Positions 7,048-14,789 are shown, numbered from the stretch's first letter. The stretch: 64,000 bases of DNA from Thermococcus sp. 21S7 (GCF_012027615.1 NZ_SNUT01000003.1:124001-188000), one strand, 5' to 3'. The notes: a model not told the origin generated them from the letters alone. Made by a program: numbers and translations.

Positions 7048-7974
7048 TCAGTTGATGTCGCTGGTCATGAACCGGACGTAGGCAAAGGCGAAGGGCAGGA
7101 AGAGCATGACAAGGAGCATTGCCAGGTTGTTGAAGCCGTAGGTGAAGGAATCGCCCAGCGGAAGGTAGTAGTTAAGGAATCTGTCGCCCCCGAAGATGTA
7201 CTGGACGAGCTGGACGTAGTGGTGTGCGGGGTTAATGAGGTGAAGCCTCGACATCCACGTGTTCACCGTTTCCTGCCAGACCTCGTGGGCACCCGTTCCC
7301 CACGGCGGCTCTGGCCCGGCGAGCTTGGGTGCAACTATCCCCACCACGATGCCGTAGAAGACGGTGAGGAATATCGCCAGGCCGATCGCAGCGAGCATCG
7401 AAGTCTCCGGCTTTTTAAAGAGTGTTGAGAAAAGGACGCCGATTGAAAGGAAAGTCAGCGTGTACAGGATGGTCACCAGAATCGCCAAGAACCCTCTGAA
7501 GAGTGAGTCGCCGTCCATAGGAATCCCCAGTATGAGCATCACGGCGATGATGGCAATGTAGACCACGAGGTTGGCCAGAACCACCAGAACTCCCATCCCG
7601 AGGAACTTGCCGTTGATGACCTCGTCCCTGTACACTGGGTGACCTAGGAGAACCTTCGCCGTTCCGGTTTCTACTTCCCGGTTTATGGCGTCCGACCCCA
7701 GGGCGGCCCCGAGGACGGCCCCGATGATGGTGATTATCATCATGTTTATCATGAAGAGCATCGAAAGGGGGGTCATGTACACCTCACCGCCGGCCCCCCA
7801 GAGGCTGAACTCGTTGGATTCAACGCCCGGGACGCCCATCCGAATCAGGTAGTCCTTTATGCCGTAGACCGCGAGGCCAAAAATGAGGAGGTAGAGGCCC
7901 ATGATGACGATGAACCTTTTGCTCTTCACTGCGGTGTAGAGTTCCTTGAGGGCTATGTTCCAGGCGGGGTTCAT
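7048..7974 (-). CDS. ABC-2 type transporter permease
   Basis: A 308-residue membrane protein with six hydrophobic segments and the ABC-2 signature region (TGTAKVLLGHPVYRDEVINGKF). It is last in a four-gene minus-strand operon. ATG 7974 is preferred because it makes an ATGA overlap with the upstream NEW3 gene; an upstream ATG at 8001 has no ribosome binding site. It is the second permease of the operon and probably pairs with the one at 11022. GC content is like the core genome, unlike the 11022 permease. Confidence 0.85.
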   Translation of the reverse strand: MNPAWNIALKELYTAVKSKRFIVIMGLYLLIFGLAVYGIKDYLIRMGVPGVESNEFSLWGAGGEVYMTPLSMLFMINMMIITIIGAVLGAALGSDAINREVETGTAKVLLGHPVYRDEVINGKFLGMGVLVVLANLVVYIAIIAVMLILGIPMDGDSLFRGFLAILVTILYTLTFLSIGVLFSTLFKKPETSMLAAIGLAIFLTVFYGIVVGIVAPKLAGPEPPWGTGAHEVWQETVNTWMSRLHLINPAHHYVQLVQYIFGGDRFLNYYLPLGDSFTYGFNNLAMLLVMLFLPFAFAYVRFMTSDIN

Positions 7975-10097
7975 CTCCTGCCGACCCTCCTCATCAGCCA
8001 TATCACGATTCCAAAGACGACTACCAGCAAAACGATGCCGATGTAAGCGCTGCTTGAGCCCTGCGTGACCCTGACCGTTATCACTGTTTCGGCCTTTGCC
8101 TGGTCGCCGGCGGCCTTCACGGTTACGGTGTAGGTTCCCGCGGGAGCGGACTTTGGAACCTTTATCCTAAGCTCAACGCTTTGGCCGTGGCTTATCCAGA
8201 CGTTGCCGCCCTGGGGAATCTCCCCCATCCGCGGGATGTTGTCAGGAACGACCTCAACGTCCCAGCCGTTCGGTGCCTGGGTCGAGAACTTAACGTTCGT
8301 GACGGTTCCAGTGGCGTCGACCCATATCGAGGTGGCCGTTGAGCCTCCAGCCCTAACGCTCAGTGTAGGATAGTCCGGGTTGAGGGAGAGGCTGGCGGGG
8401 TTCTCCACCCTTACCGTCAGCGGGATTTCAACCCGCGTCTCTTTCCCCTCGATGAGGATCCTGGCGTTTATCTCACCCGATGCTGCATTGAACGGCGCTA
8501 CGACCACGACGTAAGCGCTCACCCGTTTTCCGGGTTCAGCCTTCAGGATTCCAACCGGAACCGCACCGTTAGCATCCTGACTGACGACGTAGCTCCACCG
8601 ATTCTCAAGGCCCTCGACCCTTATCCTGTACTCATCCTCGTTGGAGCCGAGGTTTGTTATCTCCACCTCGGTGCTGGCGCTCCCCCCGGCCTGGAGGGTG
8701 AGGACATCGTGCTGGGCCTCTGCCTCAAAGTAGTACGGCGCCCTCATGAGGGTTACCTTGAGGGTCTTCTCCTCGCCGTCCCCCAGTTTCACCCTTTCCT
8801 CCTTTGGAACGGCTCCCGGGGCACCGGCGGCAAGCCTGTACTCACCCGCCGGGAGTTCAACCGTCATGCTGCCCACCGCCGACGTTGTAACGTTCTTTCC
8901 ACCGACGCTTACCCATCCCTTCACGGGGTTTCCACCCTCATCGGTCAGGATTACCGTCAGCTTCGCCGGCTGGCCGAGGTAGGTTTTGTATACATGAACC
9001 GTTAGCCCGTGCTCCCGCCCGTTGACCATGAAGCTCAACCGGTGGTCGCCGAGGGTAGCGTTCCTGGGTATCTCGATGAGCAGGGTGGCGCCGAAGGTTC
9101 CCGAAACTGTAAAGCTCCTGAGCCTGTACCGCCCGTCCGTCAGGTACATCGTCCATCCTGCGGGGACGTCCTTTGGCCGGAAGTCCACGGCGCCGCTTCC
9201 CGTGAATGTTACGGGAACCGCAAGTTTCTGCCCCGCCTCTGCGTCCAAGCTTAGGTACGGAACCGAGACATCAACGGCGGCGGCTTCTATCCGAACGCTC
9301 CCCTGGAAATCCCCTATGGAGAATCTGATGGTTCCACTGCCCGCAGGCTCAACGTGAAGGCTGACCGTTTCCGAGCCCTTTGGAGGAAGAGTTATCTCCT
9401 CGACCTCAACCCCCCCGTACAGAAAGTTCGCCCTCCACCCTTCCGGCATGGACGTAACTTTGAGGCTCAAGCGGAGCTCCGAATTCAAGGCGCTGGTTAT
9501 CGTTATCGGCACGTCAACGGGTCCGGAGGCCCTTATCCTTCCGTAGGGGCAGAACACCGAGTACTCCATGCTGACCGTCTCCGAGGCGGGTTCCGCGGCA
9601 TACACCTTTATCCTCTTCCCGTCGTACTCCACGGCTATCAGATCAACGACGGCACTTCCGTTAACCTCCAGGGTTCTTGAAACACCGTTCACCGAGACGT
9701 CAATGGTCTCGTCGCCCACCCCTGTAACGAGGACAACATTCCCGCCGAAAACAGCCTTGGCTCCGACTTCGGGCTTTAGAGACGTAATGAAATCGGGCTT
9801 CACAGAAACCACGATAAAACCGCCCCTTTCAGTGTAGCTCCCGATGAATATCCGGAGATCATCCCTCTTAACCTCAGTTCCAAAGGTAAAGGGTGCTATG
9901 TCCAGTACCGTATCTCCCCTCTTCACCACAAGGTAGGGGCTCCCATTGGCCGCCTGGGTCAGGGTTACGGTGTATCCGTCGACTCTAACGGTCTGCCCGG
10001 TTGAAATCCTCCCCTGAAACACTGTCACGTAGGGCTGAGCCGCAACGAGTGAAGACAGAAAAACCAGCGAAAGAAAAACCCCCAGAAGTTTTCTCAT
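7971..10097 (-). CDS. Secreted, C-terminally anchored NEW3/Ig-like domain protein of the ABC operon
   Basis: A 708-residue surface protein. A signal peptide (residues 1-20, ending VAAQ) is followed by several beta-sandwich segments. Two or more resemble the NEW3 (alpha-galactosidase-associated) domain, with repeated phrases such as LPPKGSETVSL, IPRNATLGDH and VPKSAPAGTYTV. One segment is a carboxypeptidase-regulatory-like beta domain (VILTDEGGNPVKGWVSVGG). One C-terminal membrane helix (about 683-702) ends in RRVGRR. It sits between ATPase and permease genes with overlaps on both sides, so it probably forms an extracellular module of the transporter. The ligand is unknown. Confidence 0.75.
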   Translation of the reverse strand: MRKLLGVFLSLVFLSSLVAAQPYVTVFQGRISTGQTVRVDGYTVTLTQAANGSPYLVVKRGDTVLDIAPFTFGTEVKRDDLRIFIGSYTERGGFIVVSVKPDFITSLKPEVGAKAVFGGNVVLVTGVGDETIDVSVNGVSRTLEVNGSAVVDLIAVEYDGKRIKVYAAEPASETVSMEYSVFCPYGRIRASGPVDVPITITSALNSELRLSLKVTSMPEGWRANFLYGGVEVEEITLPPKGSETVSLHVEPAGSGTIRFSIGDFQGSVRIEAAAVDVSVPYLSLDAEAGQKLAVPVTFTGSGAVDFRPKDVPAGWTMYLTDGRYRLRSFTVSGTFGATLLIEIPRNATLGDHRLSFMVNGREHGLTVHVYKTYLGQPAKLTVILTDEGGNPVKGWVSVGGKNVTTSAVGSMTVELPAGEYRLAAGAPGAVPKEERVKLGDGEEKTLKVTLMRAPYYFEAEAQHDVLTLQAGGSASTEVEITNLGSNEDEYRIRVEGLENRWSYVVSQDANGAVPVGILKAEPGKRVSAYVVVVAPFNAASGEINARILIEGKETRVEIPLTVRVENPASLSLNPDYPTLSVRAGGSTATSIWVDATGTVTNVKFSTQAPNGWDVEVVPDNIPRMGEIPQGGNVWISHGQSVELRIKVPKSAPAGTYTVTVKAAGDQAKAETVITVRVTQGSSSAYIGIVLLVVVFGIVIWLMRRVGRR

Positions 10098-11017
10098 TCC
10101 CCATCCCTCCCGTAAATGGTTCGGAGGAAAACGTCCTCCAGGCTGGGTTCTTCAACATCGAGCCTCAGGATTGTGAGGCCTTTTTCGGAGAGGTACCTGG
10201 AGAGGTCTTCCCTTATGTCGGTTCTAGCGAATATTATCGCCCTGTTAGGTTGAATCACCTCAACCCTCGTTACCTCGGGATGCTCTATCTCAGGAAGGGG
10301 CTCCTTGGTTTCAACCTTTATCTCGTAGCCCTCAAGCTCCATGAACTGCCTCTTTATCTCTTCAAGGGTTCCGACAGCCTTCAGCTTCCCTTTCACGATT
10401 ATCCCGACCCTGTCACTGAGCTCCTCGACCTCGCTGAGCACATGGGAAGAGAAGAAGACGGTCCTGCCCTCGGCCTTCGCCTCCCTGATGATCCTTTTGA
10501 CGAGGTGGGCTCCCTCAGGATCGAGACCGCTCGTCGGCTCGTCGAGGATTAGAAGTTCGGGGTCGTTTACGAGGGTCTGGGCTATCAGAAGCCTCTGCTT
10601 CATACCCTTGGAGAACGTCTTCGCCTTCCGGTAGCGGACCTCCCAGAGACCTACCATCTTCAGAAGTTCCGTTATCCGCTTCTCCCGCTCCGCGTTTGAC
10701 ATCCTGTAGAAGTTGGCGAAGAACTCAAGGTTTTTCCACGCGGTGAGCTCGCCGTACACTGTGGCGTTCTCGGGGAGAAAACCAATCCTCTCTTTAACGG
10801 TTATGGGTTCTTTAAAAACATCGCATCCCAAGAGCTTTACGGTGCCTTGATCAGGTATTACTATGCCCAGCATGCTGAGTATCGTTGTGGTCTTCCCGGC
10901 GCCGTTGGGGCCGAGAAAGCCGAAGACTTCCCTCCCACGCACTTTCAGGTTTAAATCGTCGACGGCTTTAAAGTTGCCGTACCTCTTGACGAGGTTCTCA
11001 ATCTCTATGGAGTACAT
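10094..11017 (-). CDS. ABC transporter ATP-binding protein
   Basis: A 307-residue ATPase with Walker A (GPNGAGKTT), a variant signature FSKGMKQR, Walker B and D-loop (LLILDEPTSGLDP) and an H-loop (SSHVLSEVE), followed by a C-terminal regulatory region of about 80 residues. This is the CcmA/NatA type that serves ABC-2 exporters. ATG 11017 with GGTGA upstream is chosen over TTG 11035. The gene starts 4 bp after the permease gene and overlaps the NEW3 gene by ATGA. It is the only ATPase in the operon, so it must serve both permeases. An ATPase of this class is also a regular member of circular bacteriocin clusters. Confidence 0.93.
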   Translation of the reverse strand: MYSIEIENLVKRYGNFKAVDDLNLKVRGREVFGFLGPNGAGKTTTILSMLGIVIPDQGTVKLLGCDVFKEPITVKERIGFLPENATVYGELTAWKNLEFFANFYRMSNAEREKRITELLKMVGLWEVRYRKAKTFSKGMKQRLLIAQTLVNDPELLILDEPTSGLDPEGAHLVKRIIREAKAEGRTVFFSSHVLSEVEELSDRVGIIVKGKLKAVGTLEEIKRQFMELEGYEIKVETKEPLPEIEHPEVTRVEVIQPNRAIIFARTDIREDLSRYLSEKGLTILRLDVEEPSLEDVFLRTIYGRDGE

Positions 11018-11021
11018 ACCA

Positions 11022-11999
11022 TCACCCCAAATCAACCCTTATGAACTTCGCGTACGCCACAACAAGGGACAGGAGGGACATGACAGATAGCATAACTATG
11101 TTCCCCCACACGAGGCCGAGGCTCTCTGCAATAGGCCTCTCCTCGACGATGCTGCCCTCATAAGCAAGAGCGGATATTATTTCGCTTATTTTTGGTTTTC
11201 CCCCGAAGATCATCCTGATTATCTCCTGATAATGATAGTTTGGAGAGATATAAAGGATTCTCTCCGCCGTTATTGTCAGCTTGGTCAGCCATGCCTGATA
11301 TGCTGGGTCTTTAAGTAGCATCTCCTGAAGTTGATCTTCAGTTAGATTTGCAGCATTCTCCGGGATATTGGGGACTGGAGGCAAGCCAGCCAGTGCAAAT
11401 GCCACGACTCCGGCGATTATTGAGAGCAGAAAGCCAAAGAAGACAAAGAGGAAAATCGACATGACTAATGCATTCCGTGATTTTCTGATAAAGGTTGAGA
11501 CCAAGAGTCCCAGGCTCAGGAAGACCAGTCCATAGAGCATACTGAAGGGCAGAGTCGCCAAAAACTTTATCAGATCCTCCTTGGCCACGGAAATCCCAAA
11601 AATTAGTGCAAAAGCCACCGTTAAAACGTAAAACAATGATAATGCAGTACCCAGTATCAACAGACTGCCCACGAGTTTGCCGAAGAGTATCTCATCCCGG
11701 TACACGGGTCTTGAGATCACAAGCTTTAAAGTTCCATTTTCTATCTCCTCCGCTATTGTGGTTCCTCCAAGAAGAACTCCAAGCAGGGCTATTGAGTAGT
11801 TGAACGCATTGGAGAAACCTGTGAGGAAAAGCATCTGAAAGGGCGTCCGGTATAACTCTCCATTCATCCCGAGTCTTTTTGAGTTGTAAACCATCACCAG
11901 TGAGAGTACGATGAAAAGCGCCATTGTTATGTGGAATTTTTTTGTTTTAATTCCTATCTCGAAATCCTTCATCGCTATGTTCATGACCGCCCTTCCCAT
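11022..11999 (-). CDS. ABC-2 type transporter permease, AT-rich
   Basis: A 325-residue membrane protein with about six helices and the ABC-2 region ENGTLKLVISRPVYRDEILFGK, homologous to the 7048 permease. It is first in the operon and begins 10 bp from the duplicated promoter element that also drives the peptide cassette on the other strand. ATG 11999 is preferred: GGTGA lies 6 nt upstream, while GTG 12008 lacks a site. It is visibly AT-richer than the rest of the operon and matches the peptide island, which suggests it arrived with the island or was replaced. Confidence 0.85.
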   Translation of the reverse strand: MGRAVMNIAMKDFEIGIKTKKFHITMALFIVLSLVMVYNSKRLGMNGELYRTPFQMLFLTGFSNAFNYSIALLGVLLGGTTIAEEIENGTLKLVISRPVYRDEILFGKLVGSLLILGTALSLFYVLTVAFALIFGISVAKEDLIKFLATLPFSMLYGLVFLSLGLLVSTFIRKSRNALVMSIFLFVFFGFLLSIIAGVVAFALAGLPPVPNIPENAANLTEDQLQEMLLKDPAYQAWLTKLTITAERILYISPNYHYQEIIRMIFGGKPKISEIISALAYEGSIVEERPIAESLGLVWGNIVMLSVMSLLSLVVAYAKFIRVDLG

Positions 12000-12009
12000 G
12001 TCCGTCACC

Positions 12010-12136
12010 CGTTGCTGGACACGCCGACAATGTTTAATAATATTACTCTGATGCCACTGTCATTTAACCTATAACAAATTTCAAAAACAAGAACAGGTGA
12101 CGGTAATATTGACGAAAACTTTAAATAGTACTCAGA
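12010..12136. repeat. 127-bp promoter repeat, copy 1 (divergent promoter)
   Basis: This segment matches 13413-13539 at 124 of 127 positions with no gaps; the three differences cluster at about 12047-12053. It holds a plus-strand BRE/TATA (gaaaact then ttaaata, TATA about 12120-12127) for the peptide cassette and an AT-rich block (about 12031-12045) able to act as a minus-strand TATA for the ABC operon that starts 10 bp away. It is therefore a bidirectional promoter shared by exporter and cassette A. Confidence 0.9.
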
Positions 12137-12191
12137 TCTCGGAGAAGCTCTTGGATGATAGGGGTGTGGAAGAAGGCTTTAGGTTATAGTA

Positions 12192-12497
12192 ATGGTATTG
12201 ATGGCAATTGGAATGGTAGTCGGAGGAGCAGTCTGGGGTAGCAATCTGACTTATCGCATAACCAAGAGGTATACGAACCCAGAAAAGGCTGAAATTGTGG
12301 GAGGTGCTGTAGGAACTGCCGCCGGATGGTTAGGAGGAAAGGCTATTGACCATGCAAGTAAGTGGGCAGGAGAAAGAGTGGGAGCATGGGCAGCGGCAAG
12401 AATTGGTGCAGAAGTAGGAGGGAGAGTAGGAACTATATTTGGAGGCCTTGTAGGCCTAGCGGTAGGGTTAGCTGTGGGTGCCGCGATTGGATACTAA
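12192..12497 (+). CDS. Glycine-rich hydrophobic peptide, candidate bacteriocin-like precursor (cassette A)
   Basis: The 101-residue product is dominated by Gly, Ala and Val with GxxxG patterns (AVGTAAGWLGG, IFGGLVGLAVGLAVG), has scattered Lys/Arg, and ends in an aromatic residue (AAIGY), as circularin A and AS-48 do. ATG 12192 lacks a good ribosome binding site. A better start, GTG 12164 (MWKKAL), matches the leader of the cassette B peptide (MWRKAL) but is one base out of frame with the body. The leader is therefore frameshifted, or ATG 12192 is used without it. A plain glycine-zipper membrane protein is the alternative. Confidence 0.6.
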   Translation: MVLMAIGMVVGGAVWGSNLTYRITKRYTNPEKAEIVGGAVGTAAGWLGGKAIDHASKWAGERVGAWAAARIGAEVGGRVGTIFGGLVGLAVGLAVGAAIGY

Positions 12498-12512
12498 TGA
12501 GGTGAGTCTAAA

Positions 12513-12734
12513 ATGGATGCTTTAAGGAGGCTTGCTTGGTCTCTTGTTCCTTTTTTTATGTTGATGCTAGTTGTGAGGTTAACGGAAGACGTTGTTTTTG
12601 GTATTGTGGCAGGCTTCACTCTTGGAGCCTTCTTGACAGCTATCAAACCTTCATGGAGGAACATTATAGTGGCTATGGGGCTCATATTGGGACTTTTTAT
12701 AGGTTACTCGCTCCTACCAAAGTTCTGGCCATGA
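12513..12734 (+). CDS. Small two- or three-helix membrane protein, candidate immunity protein
   Basis: A 73-residue hydrophobic protein with helices at about 8-24, 27-44 and 49-67, a basic N-terminus (MDALRRLAW) and the C-terminus LLPKFWP. GAGGTGA precedes ATG 12513 with good spacing, 15 bp after the peptide gene. Its size, charge and position between the peptide and SpoIIM genes mirror the small cationic immunity proteins of circular bacteriocin clusters. No sequence family is recognised, so the role is positional inference. Cassette B has a different two-helix protein at the same place. Confidence 0.65.
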   Translation: MDALRRLAWSLVPFFMLMLVVRLTEDVVFGIVAGFTLGAFLTAIKPSWRNIIVAMGLILGLFIGYSLLPKFWP

Positions 12735-12743
12735 GGGATAAAA

Positions 12744-13294
12744 ATGGTGAATCTTAAGTCTGCTTTTTCCTTTTGTCTGTCCACCCTTATGTTTACAACT
12801 GGTATCGTTCTTGGCTTTTTCTCAGCGCTCAGGCATGACTATTCCGCTTATTTTGGTTTTGATCCTTTTGATAATTCCAATCCGGGCTTTTTGTTCTTCT
12901 TCAAACACAACATTAAAGTTGCCCTCATGCTCTGGAGTGGAGCAATAACATTCGGAGCCACAACACTCTTGAACTTAACATTCAACGGTATGATTTTAGG
13001 TTCAGCCGTTAAAACTACTACAGAGCAGATAGGTTTAATAAAAACTCTACTCCTGCTTCTCCCTCATGGTGTTCTTGAGATCCCCGGAATGATAATAGCT
13101 GAGCCGCTGGTTTTAAAATCCCTTACGCACTGTTGAGGTTCGCTTTGGGCAGGAAGGAAGAGATTATTACGGAAGAGGATGCTAAAGAATTCTTTAAGCT
13201 CGTTTTTATCTCGATAGTTTTAATTTTCATTGCTGCTTTGATTGAGAGCACAATAACACTTAAAATAGCCAAAAGTGGGGTGATGGAGGTGTGA
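12744..13294 (+). pseudogene. SpoIIM/DUF95-family membrane protein gene with a single-base frameshift (cassette A)
   Basis: The frame from ATG 12744 carries the DUF95 hallmarks (FKHNIKVALML, FGATTLLNLTFNG, LLPHGVLEIPGMIIAE) but stops at 13136. The missing C-terminal 54 residues continue in the next frame to TGA 13292-13294 (LLRFALGRKEEII, KEFFKLVFIS, ALIESTITLKIA) and match the cassette B copy closely. Alignment places a one-base loss in the run gttttaaaatcc near 13100. It is either real decay or a sequencing error in a homopolymer. Family members in AS-48-type clusters are needed for bacteriocin production or immunity. Confidence 0.8.
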
Positions 13295-13412
13295 AGGAAG
13301 ACCCTCGTACTTCGGCCTGATGCTGATGGCTGTGGGGCGATAGCCGGGGAGATGAGGGCGCAGTAATTTGACTTACCCCCCGAAAAGAAATACACAGACC
13401 CGGAAAAGGCAG
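13289..13412 (+). pseudogene. Remnant of a third leader-peptide gene
   Basis: This stretch aligns with the 5' ends of the two peptide genes: GTGATGGAG is followed by GTG TGA AGG AAG, where the others read GTG TGG A-G AAG. Stops and shifts interrupt it, yet later it encodes KKYTDPEKAA, matching KRYTNPEKAE of the cassette A peptide. It overlaps the end of the SpoIIM gene and is cut off exactly where promoter repeat copy 2 begins. It is a dead, truncated peptide gene. Confidence 0.65.
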
Positions 13413-13539
13413 CGTTGCTGGACACGCCGACAATGTTTAATAATATTACTCCAATACCACTGTCATTTAACCTATAACAAATTTCAAAAACAAGAACAGG
13501 TGACGGTAATATTGACGAAAACTTTAAATAGTACTCAGA
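13413..13539. repeat. 127-bp promoter repeat, copy 2
   Basis: This is the second copy of the 12010-12136 element, with three substitutions and no indels. BRE/TATA is at about 13516-13530 (TATA ttaaata). It drives cassette B. Here the minus-strand side faces a dead peptide gene rather than the ABC operon. Near identity in non-coding sequence implies a recent duplication or gene conversion. Confidence 0.9.
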
Positions 13540-13541
13540 CC

Positions 13542-13558
13542 CCCGAGAAATTCTCGGG
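13542..13558 (+). promoter_or_regulatory. Inverted repeat over the 5' leader and ribosome binding site of the cassette B peptide
   Basis: Arms CCCGAGAA (13542-13549) and TTCTCGGG (13551-13558) form a perfect inverted repeat. As RNA, a 7-bp stem with loop AAT would pair part of the GGTGA site (13557-13561) of the peptide start GTG 13567. It lies at the predicted transcription start, so it could be an operator or a translational block. Cassette A lacks it. Confidence 0.5.
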
Positions 13559-13566
13559 TGATGGAG

Positions 13567-13929
13567 GTGTGGAGGAAGGCCCTCGCACTCAGTTTGGTGC
13601 TGATGGCCGTAGTAATGGCAGTTGAAGGGGCAGCAACGGAAAACAGGGTTGACTGGACCGTTGGCACGGCCTCTGCTACAGTGGCAATATACGGGGAAGG
13701 AAAGTACGATTTGATTCATGGGGCTTATTTGTGGTACAAGACGAAGGATTGGAAGCAGGCTTTTTATGGATCCATAACGGGCGGGGCAACGTTAAAGGTA
13801 TCTAAAGAGGCCGGAAAGACTTTGGCCAAATACGCCACGAAAAGAATAATACAGAGAGCCGGCATCCGGATGGCCGTAAAGTTTGCTGCAAGGGCAATCC
13901 CGGTTGTTGGTGTGGGTCTTGCAATGTAA
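13567..13929 (+). CDS. Secreted cationic peptide precursor, candidate bacteriocin (cassette B)
   Basis: A 120-residue product with a clear signal-like leader (MWRKALALSLVLMAVVMAVEG) and a body of about 97 residues. The body has an aromatic middle (HGAYLWYKTKDW) and an amphipathic, strongly cationic C-terminal half (KTLAKYATKRIIQ, IRMAVKFAARAIP) ending VVGVGLAM. GTG 13567 is chosen because GGTGA lies 5 nt upstream and it aligns with the leaders of the two related genes. Properties match pore-forming helical bacteriocins. Circularisation and activity are inference; no family hit is claimed. Confidence 0.65.
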   Translation: MWRKALALSLVLMAVVMAVEGAATENRVDWTVGTASATVAIYGEGKYDLIHGAYLWYKTKDWKQAFYGSITGGATLKVSKEAGKTLAKYATKRIIQRAGIRMAVKFAARAIPVVGVGLAM

Positions 13930-13942
13930 GGGGGTGTTCCAA

Positions 13943-14215
13943 ATGAATATCAGGGAAGATCTGCAGGATTTCCTCCTGGCAGTTGTGATGCCCCTGATAA
14001 TAATGGGCACATTGACCGCTGTGACAGTAGCATACACTCAAATAATCCCAGTCAGGTCAGTGACCGATTTCCTTGAGGCAACTTTCGTATTCAGCCTGAT
14101 GTATGGTATACTGCTTTATTCGTATACAGTAATAACAGAAGCCAAACGGGAAATTAAGAATATTGAAAGACACTTTGAAAAACTCGAAGAGAATTCAAAT
14201 TATGTTCAGTCATAA
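13943..14215 (+). CDS. Small two-helix membrane protein with charged tail (cassette B)
   Basis: A 90-residue protein starting MNIREDLQDF, with helices at about 10-32 and 44-64 and a charged coiled tail (EAKREIKNIERHFEKLEE). GGGGGTG precedes ATG 13943, 14 bp after the peptide gene. It holds the position of the 12513 protein of cassette A but shares no clear sequence with it, as expected of immunity proteins matched to their own peptide. An accessory secretion subunit is the alternative. Confidence 0.65.
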   Translation: MNIREDLQDFLLAVVMPLIIMGTLTAVTVAYTQIIPVRSVTDFLEATFVFSLMYGILLYSYTVITEAKREIKNIERHFEKLEENSNYVQS

Positions 14216-14234
14216 CCCTGCAGGGGCAAAGACC

Positions 14235-14789
14235 ATGAGGCACACTATGATTCTTTCATTTTTGTTGTTTACCATGGGGTTTGTTCTTGGAGTTTCTCTG
14301 TCATCCCATTACAGTACCACAGACTACGCAAATCCCGAATCAATTTTGGGGCTTTTAGACCAAGAATTCAATATGAACCGTGTTACGTTTGCCAATATCT
14401 TCGTTAACAATCTTAAAGTTGTCCTATTGCTTTCTTTTGGCGGTGCTCTGACTTTCGGTGGATTAACCCTCTTGAATTTAGTCGCCAATGGGGTGAATCT
14501 GGGAACACTATTTTACGATTTCCTTATCATCAGAGACATCAAAACATTCCTCATTTTGCTGCTCCCCCATGGTATTTTTGAAATACCTGCCATCGTCGTT
14601 GCAGGAGCGGCAGGCTTTAAGATTCCCTATGAACTGTTGAGGTTTGTCTTGGGCCGGAAGGGAGAGATTATCAGCGAAGAAGACGCCAAAGAGTTCTTTA
14701 AACTCGTCGCGATTTCAGTGATCATGATTCTCATCGCCGCCCTAATCGAGAGCACTGTAACGCTTAAAATCGCCGAAGGTTTGGGCTGA
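14235..14789 (+). CDS. SpoIIM/DUF95-family membrane protein (cassette B, intact)
   Basis: This 184-residue protein has about five membrane helices and the DUF95 core: NNLKVVLLLSFGGALTFG, LTLLNLVANGVNLG and LLPHGIFEIPAIVVAGAAGF. The C-terminal part nearly matches cassette A (KGEIISEEDAKEFFKLVAIS). ATG 14235 is used because AGGGG lies 9 nt upstream; an in-frame ATG at 14202 has no site. DUF95 proteins are regular members of circular bacteriocin operons, where they aid maturation, secretion or immunity. Outside such clusters archaeal homologues are of unknown function. Confidence 0.85.
   Translation: MRHTMILSFLLFTMGFVLGVSLSSHYSTTDYANPESILGLLDQEFNMNRVTFANIFVNNLKVVLLLSFGGALTFGGLTLLNLVANGVNLGTLFYDFLIIRDIKTFLILLLPHGIFEIPAIVVAGAAGFKIPYELLRFVLGRKGEIISEEDAKEFFKLVAISVIMILIAALIESTVTLKIAEGLG

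Follow-up and report, generated by a model that had tools for sequence, protein, structure and literature searches.

Leader-peptide cassettes with DUF95 partners in an AT-rich island of Thermococcus sp. 21S7: a candidate bacteriocin-like system

What is the function of the small membrane-protein genes that lie with DUF95 (SpoIIM) genes and an ABC-2 permease next to moaC in Thermococcus sp. 21S7, and could they encode an antimicrobial peptide? We considered positions 11022-14789 of contig 3 of this genome (G000), within a window of 64,000 nucleotides, the whole stretch of DNA that was analysed. A preliminary description, made from the window alone, had taken this region for an archaeal counterpart of the circular bacteriocin clusters.

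Insertion site and content of the island

AT-rich DNA has been inserted here, with moaC on one side and a resident ABC operon, which encodes an ATPase, a surface protein and a permease, on the other. In the close relatives G031 and G070 the gap between moaC and the ATPase gene is about 97 bp, permease 1 (perm1) and the cassettes are absent, and behind the ATPase come the same two genes, for the surface protein and permease 2; the ATPase and permease 2 are 84-90% identical to those of 21S7. Since these genomes retain the ATPase beside moaC without perm1 and the cassettes, perm1 belongs to the island and the ATPase lies outside it. In other relatives the same slot holds different permeases, without cassettes. 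GC3 values of 0.35-0.56 within the island contrast with 0.69-0.80 in the genes on either side, in agreement with the AT-rich island of the preliminary description; at the border it is 0.54 in perm1 and 0.69 in the adjacent ATPase gene. The island seems to have been acquired. A plasmid search yielded only distant DUF95 matches on archaeal plasmids.

Besides its own ABC-2 permease, the island contains one intact cassette (B), one decayed cassette (A) and one relic (Table 1). Thus two tandem units of a peptide, a small TM protein and DUF95 are indeed present at 12010-14789, as had been claimed, but one of them is decayed, and a third peptide gene, now a relic, had been missed. The divergent permease and ATPase of the earlier claim fared similarly: the permease does face the cassettes across a promoter element, but the ATPase belongs to the resident operon and is found in island-free relatives. 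A dedicated four-gene exporter was rejected, as the ATPase, the surface protein and permease 2 adjoin moaC in these relatives. The resident ATPase has possibly been recruited by perm1.

Table 1. Features of the island and of the adjacent resident operon (positions in the window)
Feature	Position	Strand	Comment
Resident ABC-2 permease 2	7048-8001	-	same operon as ATPase
Resident NEW3-domain surface protein	7971-10097	-	same operon as ATPase
Resident ABC ATPase (DrrA-like)	10094-11035	-	an ATPase of 84-89% identity directly adjoins moaC in island-free relatives
ABC-2 permease 1 (perm1), cassette-associated allele	11022-12008	-	PF12679, E 1.5e-34; likely start ATG near 11993-11999
Promoter/leader repeat, copy 1	12010-12177		between perm1 and peptide A; contains promoter motif CGAAAACTTTAAATAGTA
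Peptide A precursor gene, decayed	12158-12497	+	open part 12192-12497 (101 aa); leader and core frames compared
Small 2-3 TM membrane protein A, 73 aa	12513-12734	+	candidate cognate immunity protein of peptide A
DUF95/SpoIIM gene 1, broken	12744-13294	+	PF01944, E 7.5e-19 for 12744-13133; frameshift near 13116-13136
Relic of a third, peptide-A-type precursor gene	13278-13411	+	leader with stop, then KYTDPEKAALL
Promoter/leader repeat, copy 2	13413-13580		TATA-like TTTAAATA at 13523-13530; palindrome CCCGAGAAATTCTCGGG at 13542-13558
Peptide B precursor	13558-13929	+	start at 13558, 13561 or 13567; leader VWRKALALSLVLMAVVMAVEGA and cationic core of about 98 aa
Small 2-TM membrane protein B, 90 aa	13943-14215	+	candidate cognate immunity protein of peptide B
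DUF95/SpoIIM gene 2, intact	14235-14789	+	PF01944, E 2.9e-32; variable N-half, constant C-half

In cassette A the leader is shifted by +1 relative to the core, with VWKKAL at 12164 followed by MVLMAIGMVVGGA from 12192. Peptide A is 72% identical to peptides of two other genomes, one of which (L063) has the leader MWRKALALGLVLMAFGVVVGG in frame. The reading frame of DUF95 gene 1 ends at 13136 and resumes in another frame at 13133-13294, so that the profile match is split in two, with one TGA. Both frameshifts may be sequencing errors, the genome being a draft. Repeat D3 ties the third-peptide relic to the leaders at 12153 and 13556. The intact cassette B spans 13558-14789; its peptide matches the leader-peptide profile with E 6e-22 and has core homologues in other cassettes.

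The promoter and the start of the leader of both cassettes lie in a direct repeat of 168 bp. The two copies are 92% identical and are followed by unrelated cores, a mark of cassette exchange. The motif CGAAAACTTTAAATAGTA is common to cassettes of other genomes, and ribosome-binding motifs also recur before the leader.

Leaders, cores and their partners in Thermococcaceae

We searched 94 Thermococcaceae genomes with a profile built from 23 cassette peptides (alignment A2). Cassette-type peptides occur sporadically, in 17 of the 94; the remaining weak matches are stretches of much larger proteins. The layout of the island is far beyond chance: leader, gene order and promoter recur in these 17 genomes. 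Small TM proteins are present in most cassettes, and decay is frequent.

The DUF95 domain was matched in 90 genomes of the same set, including all 74 good ones, mostly as a single stand-alone paralogue. The island DUF95 is not this gene, as the stand-alone copy of the genome sits elsewhere and is a different paralogue. The preliminary description had regarded DUF95 genes regularly lacking a peptide gene as an argument against its reading. In the neighbourhood survey, 30 of the 35 cassette-type DUF95 matches had a leader-peptide match at most 2 kb upstream; among the other five, decayed loci account for three and contig ends for two. The earlier reading thus withstands this check.

The leader of 22 residues, MWRKALVLGLVLMAIGMVVGGA, is near-invariant, with mean pairwise identity of 77% over 20 cassettes. 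The Gly/Ala-rich cores are hypervariable (29% over 20 cassettes, compared with 23% for shuffled sequences). Comparison of leader codons gave pN 0.14, pS 0.63 and pN/pS 0.22, and thus the leader is selected as a protein and not merely copied as DNA. Pure gene conversion was ruled out as the source of its constancy, since the synonymous sites differ widely.

DUF95 is divided too, but with the variable part first: its mean pairwise identity in 20 cassettes is 41% in the N-half and 80% in the C-half, and the latter follows the pattern PHGIFEIP...GFKIPYELLRF...EEDAKEFFK in an alignment of 25 cassette proteins. Core similarity rises with similarity of the N-half (rho 0.32, p 0.0006 by permutation), whereas the C-half shows no such relation (rho -0.09, p 0.80); these p values are optimistic because neither the pairs nor the genomes are independent. 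The small proteins also covary with the cores. A similar small protein accompanies 9 of 24 core-similar pairs and 3 of 301 other pairs, a count lowered by a mis-picked small ORF of G005a. Homologues of small protein A adjoin peptide-A-type cores in G078 and G082 (E 5e-16 and 7e-18), and those of small protein B adjoin peptide-B-type cores in G079 and G093 (E 3e-8). A family search with small protein A had no match. For small protein B, PADLOC and NCBIfam suggested Csx27 (E 0.002), a match that we attributed to TM composition.

Cassettes of this kind are known from two surveys. In the available parts of these papers, DUF95 islands are classed as a putative membrane-associated defence whose components vary greatly (PMC4158269, 2014), and three- or four-gene cassettes of arCOG01996 (COG1300/DUF95) are described in Archaeoglobi, Methanococci and Thermococci, with membrane remodelling or vesicle formation as the proposed function (PMC5898192, 2015). 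The island resembles the latter in the kind of gene, the lineages, the layout and the small fast-evolving membrane proteins; DUF95 with small diverged membrane proteins is found in all three lineages. It is very probably a member of the arCOG01996 cassettes, assigned by description rather than by arCOG number. The preliminary description had left it open whether archaeal surveys covered the family: the cassettes themselves had been described, but the available text of PMC4158269 and PMC5898192 reports no leader/core precursor and takes the products of the small genes for membrane components of a complex for remodelling or defence. Relative to the available text of these two papers, to which the comparison is limited, the leader, the variable core, the covariation of cores with candidate immunity proteins and the linked permease allele are new.

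One possibility is that the cassettes encode the variable parts of a DUF95-centred complex for membrane remodelling or vesicle formation, as proposed for arCOG01996. The available part of PMC5898192 refers to the SpoIIM protein of Bacillus, which organises a membrane engulfment complex, and to Yip1-like proteins beside DUF95 in some methanogen loci, and both agree with such a role. However, it leaves unexplained the constant leader on hypervariable cores, the covariation of cores and small proteins and the sporadic presence in 17 of 94 genomes, and we consider it unlikely.

The permease follows the peptides. Orthologues of perm1 (59-73% identity) are confined to genomes with leader peptides: with a cut-off of at least 59% identity they occur in 15 of the 17 peptide genomes and in none of the other 77 (Fisher p 1.5e-15, a test weakened by the shared ancestry of the genomes). 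The peptide genomes without an intact perm1 are G004 and G009, the latter with a remnant; G004 and G077, both without perm1, contain broken cassettes only. This co-occurrence is not wholly a matter of simple linkage, as several genomes of one genus have cassettes far from perm1. Still, perm1 and the cassettes may in part be transferred jointly, as a single island.

Another possibility is intracellular defence of the toxin-antitoxin type, the hydrophobic peptide harming the membrane of its own cell upon infection and the small membrane protein restraining it. The islands were classed as putative defence in the available part of PMC4158269, several cassettes adjoin what by appearance are candidate PIN-domain or HicAB toxin-antitoxin pairs, and the cassettes show fast turnover and decay. 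However, PADLOC gave only weak TM-driven matches, the strongly conserved leader and the associated exporter permease fit export better, and such a mechanism has no need of DUF95. This explanation is unlikely. An exported bacteriocin-like peptide with cognate immunity seems, from the gene content and covariation, to fit better than either the published membrane remodelling or generic defence.

Comparison with bacteriocins and a possible mode of action

A precursor, a small cationic immunity protein, an ABC transporter and DUF95 are common to the clusters of circular bacteriocins, and mature leucocyclicin Q stays trapped in the cell when its DUF95 gene is knocked out (PMC6131525). By analogy, the island would work most like these clusters (AS-48, circularin A, uberolysin, carnocyclin A, leucocyclicin Q), having a precursor, a small hydrophobic membrane protein as candidate immunity protein, DUF95 and an ABC permease with a possible ATPase partner in the resident operon. 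PF01944, present in both cassettes, is a feature of all of them (PMC6131525). The cores are also similar in being Gly/Ala-rich and hydrophobic, in length and in the hydrophobic C-terminal end. AlphaFold models of peptides A and B are all-helical, with five helices for core A, but at pLDDT 48-49 and pTM 0.25 they are uninformative as to a saposin-like fold or a bundle of four or five helices.

Thus the functional parallel drawn in the preliminary description is supported, in that the precursor with its conserved leader, the covarying small membrane protein, DUF95 and the ABC permease correspond to the four features shared by the clusters, but membership of the circular class is not supported. 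Profile searches for circular bacteriocin families with the peptides gave no Pfam, NCBIfam or PDB match, and PF12173 had no match in the 94 genomes, nor in the control genomes. Unlike the known circular bacteriocins, whose leaders have no distinct motif (PMC6131525), the archaeal cassettes put one constant leader on unrelated cores, occur several per genome and depart from the known arrangement in that the ATPase is encoded outside the island. The leaderless/saposin-like aureocin A53 and lacticin Q are likewise helical, membrane-active and made without large enzymes (PMC6131525), but they lack a leader, whereas the cassettes have a near-invariant one and a DUF95 member. No dedicated peptidase or cyclase for the cassette peptides was identified, and a literature search for bacteriocins of Thermococcales found no paper. 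Because the peptides match no circular family in sequence, we describe the cassettes as a bacteriocin-like leader-peptide system with a DUF95 partner and not as members of the circular class.

Self-recognition or signalling, in which kin would detect the exported variable peptides by means of the small membrane protein and no cell would be killed, would produce the same leader/core architecture and the same cognate membrane partners. The cassettes have no visible linked regulator or kinase, however, and the composition of the cores (mean GRAVY 0.65, Gly+Ala 34%) is, as judged from sequence, that of membrane-active peptides. Signalling thus appears unlikely.

The interpretation that we favour, and consider somewhat probable, is that of a bacteriocin-like module spread by horizontal exchange. 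A precursor peptide would be produced from each cassette and directed by the constant hydrophobic leader to shared machinery. The variable helical core of 50-100 residues would be the active, presumably toxic part, and the adjacent small protein with two or three TM segments would shield the producer from its own core. DUF95 would handle the peptide, its variable N-half tracking the core and its constant C-half probably contacting a shared partner. Perm1, probably together with the resident ATPase, would secrete the product or supply a part of the immunity. New specificities would arise when cores and their partners are swapped between constant flanks.

Cassettes in other archaeal orders and implications

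Cassettes of the same layout were found in Archaeoglobales and Methanococcales, with other conserved leaders, W..VIKWLAVAMCLAMVxxxVMP and YKIFxxxVLVSMIGALVAEP. A cassette of Archaeoglobus (L112) is similar to that of G008 both in the core (E 5e-10) and in the small protein (E 6e-7), and the core of a Methanocaldococcus cassette (L110) is similar to that of G078 (E 1e-5). Since related cores stand on unrelated leaders, and the partner in one case accompanies its core, modular exchange of the peptide and its candidate immunity protein is the best explanation. The matching cassettes of the three orders seem to form an undescribed family of candidate antimicrobial peptides. A more extended proposal, which we offer only tentatively, is that these are pan-euryarchaeal modular bacteriocins with order-specific leaders, whose cores and immunity proteins are exchanged among Thermococcales, Archaeoglobales and Methanococcales, and whose peptides are matured by DUF95, possibly circular and stable near 100 C.

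We know of few antimicrobial peptide systems from archaea. To our knowledge, no circular-bacteriocin-type system has been described in archaea, and the pan-euryarchaeal family, if real, would be the first. If the bacteriocin-like interpretation is right, the cassettes would provide dozens of peptide/immunity pairs and hyperthermostable peptides, and would point to the part of DUF95 that recognises the peptide. A gene family described in terms of membrane remodelling would then become a testable competition system.

Permease types in the moaC-ATPase gap

The permease in the slot between moaC and the resident ABC ATPase, where the island of the window is situated, differs from genome to genome in Thermococcaceae (loci L205-L210 and L083), being either absent or of differing type. 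The types are characterised by about 30%, 40% or 60-73% identity. At L083, two of them are adjacent in the slot.

Candidate regulatory palindrome

The region upstream of the precursor gene of the intact cassette, peptide B, contains a palindrome that could possibly serve as an operator or form a 5' hairpin.

Positions of the palindrome and of an unusual SpoIIM-like frame
Feature	Position	Details
17-bp palindrome CCCGAGAAATTCTCGGG	13542-13558	between TATA-like box and peptide B start
SpoIIM-like domain match (L084)	G020 C1:1276725-1277222	within 540-aa open frame

Unusual cassettes and their neighbours

The frame at L084, from another genome of the same genus, exceeds the usual forms of about 200 aa. 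A tandem array of five cassettes is found in one genome (L067); two genes situated between these cassettes are ATPase-like, with products of 423 and 429 aa. An Archaeoglobi-type cassette occurs on a metagenome-assembled contig labelled Arcobacter sp. (L113), probably mis-binned archaeal DNA.

Candidate toxin-antitoxin pairs, which judging from their sequence resemble PIN-domain/antitoxin or HicAB systems, directly adjoin DUF95 cassettes at L054 and L051 (genomes G008 and G004), and likewise in Archaeoglobi and Methanococci (L106, L110, L111, L139). Such pairs may perhaps stabilise the cassette islands.
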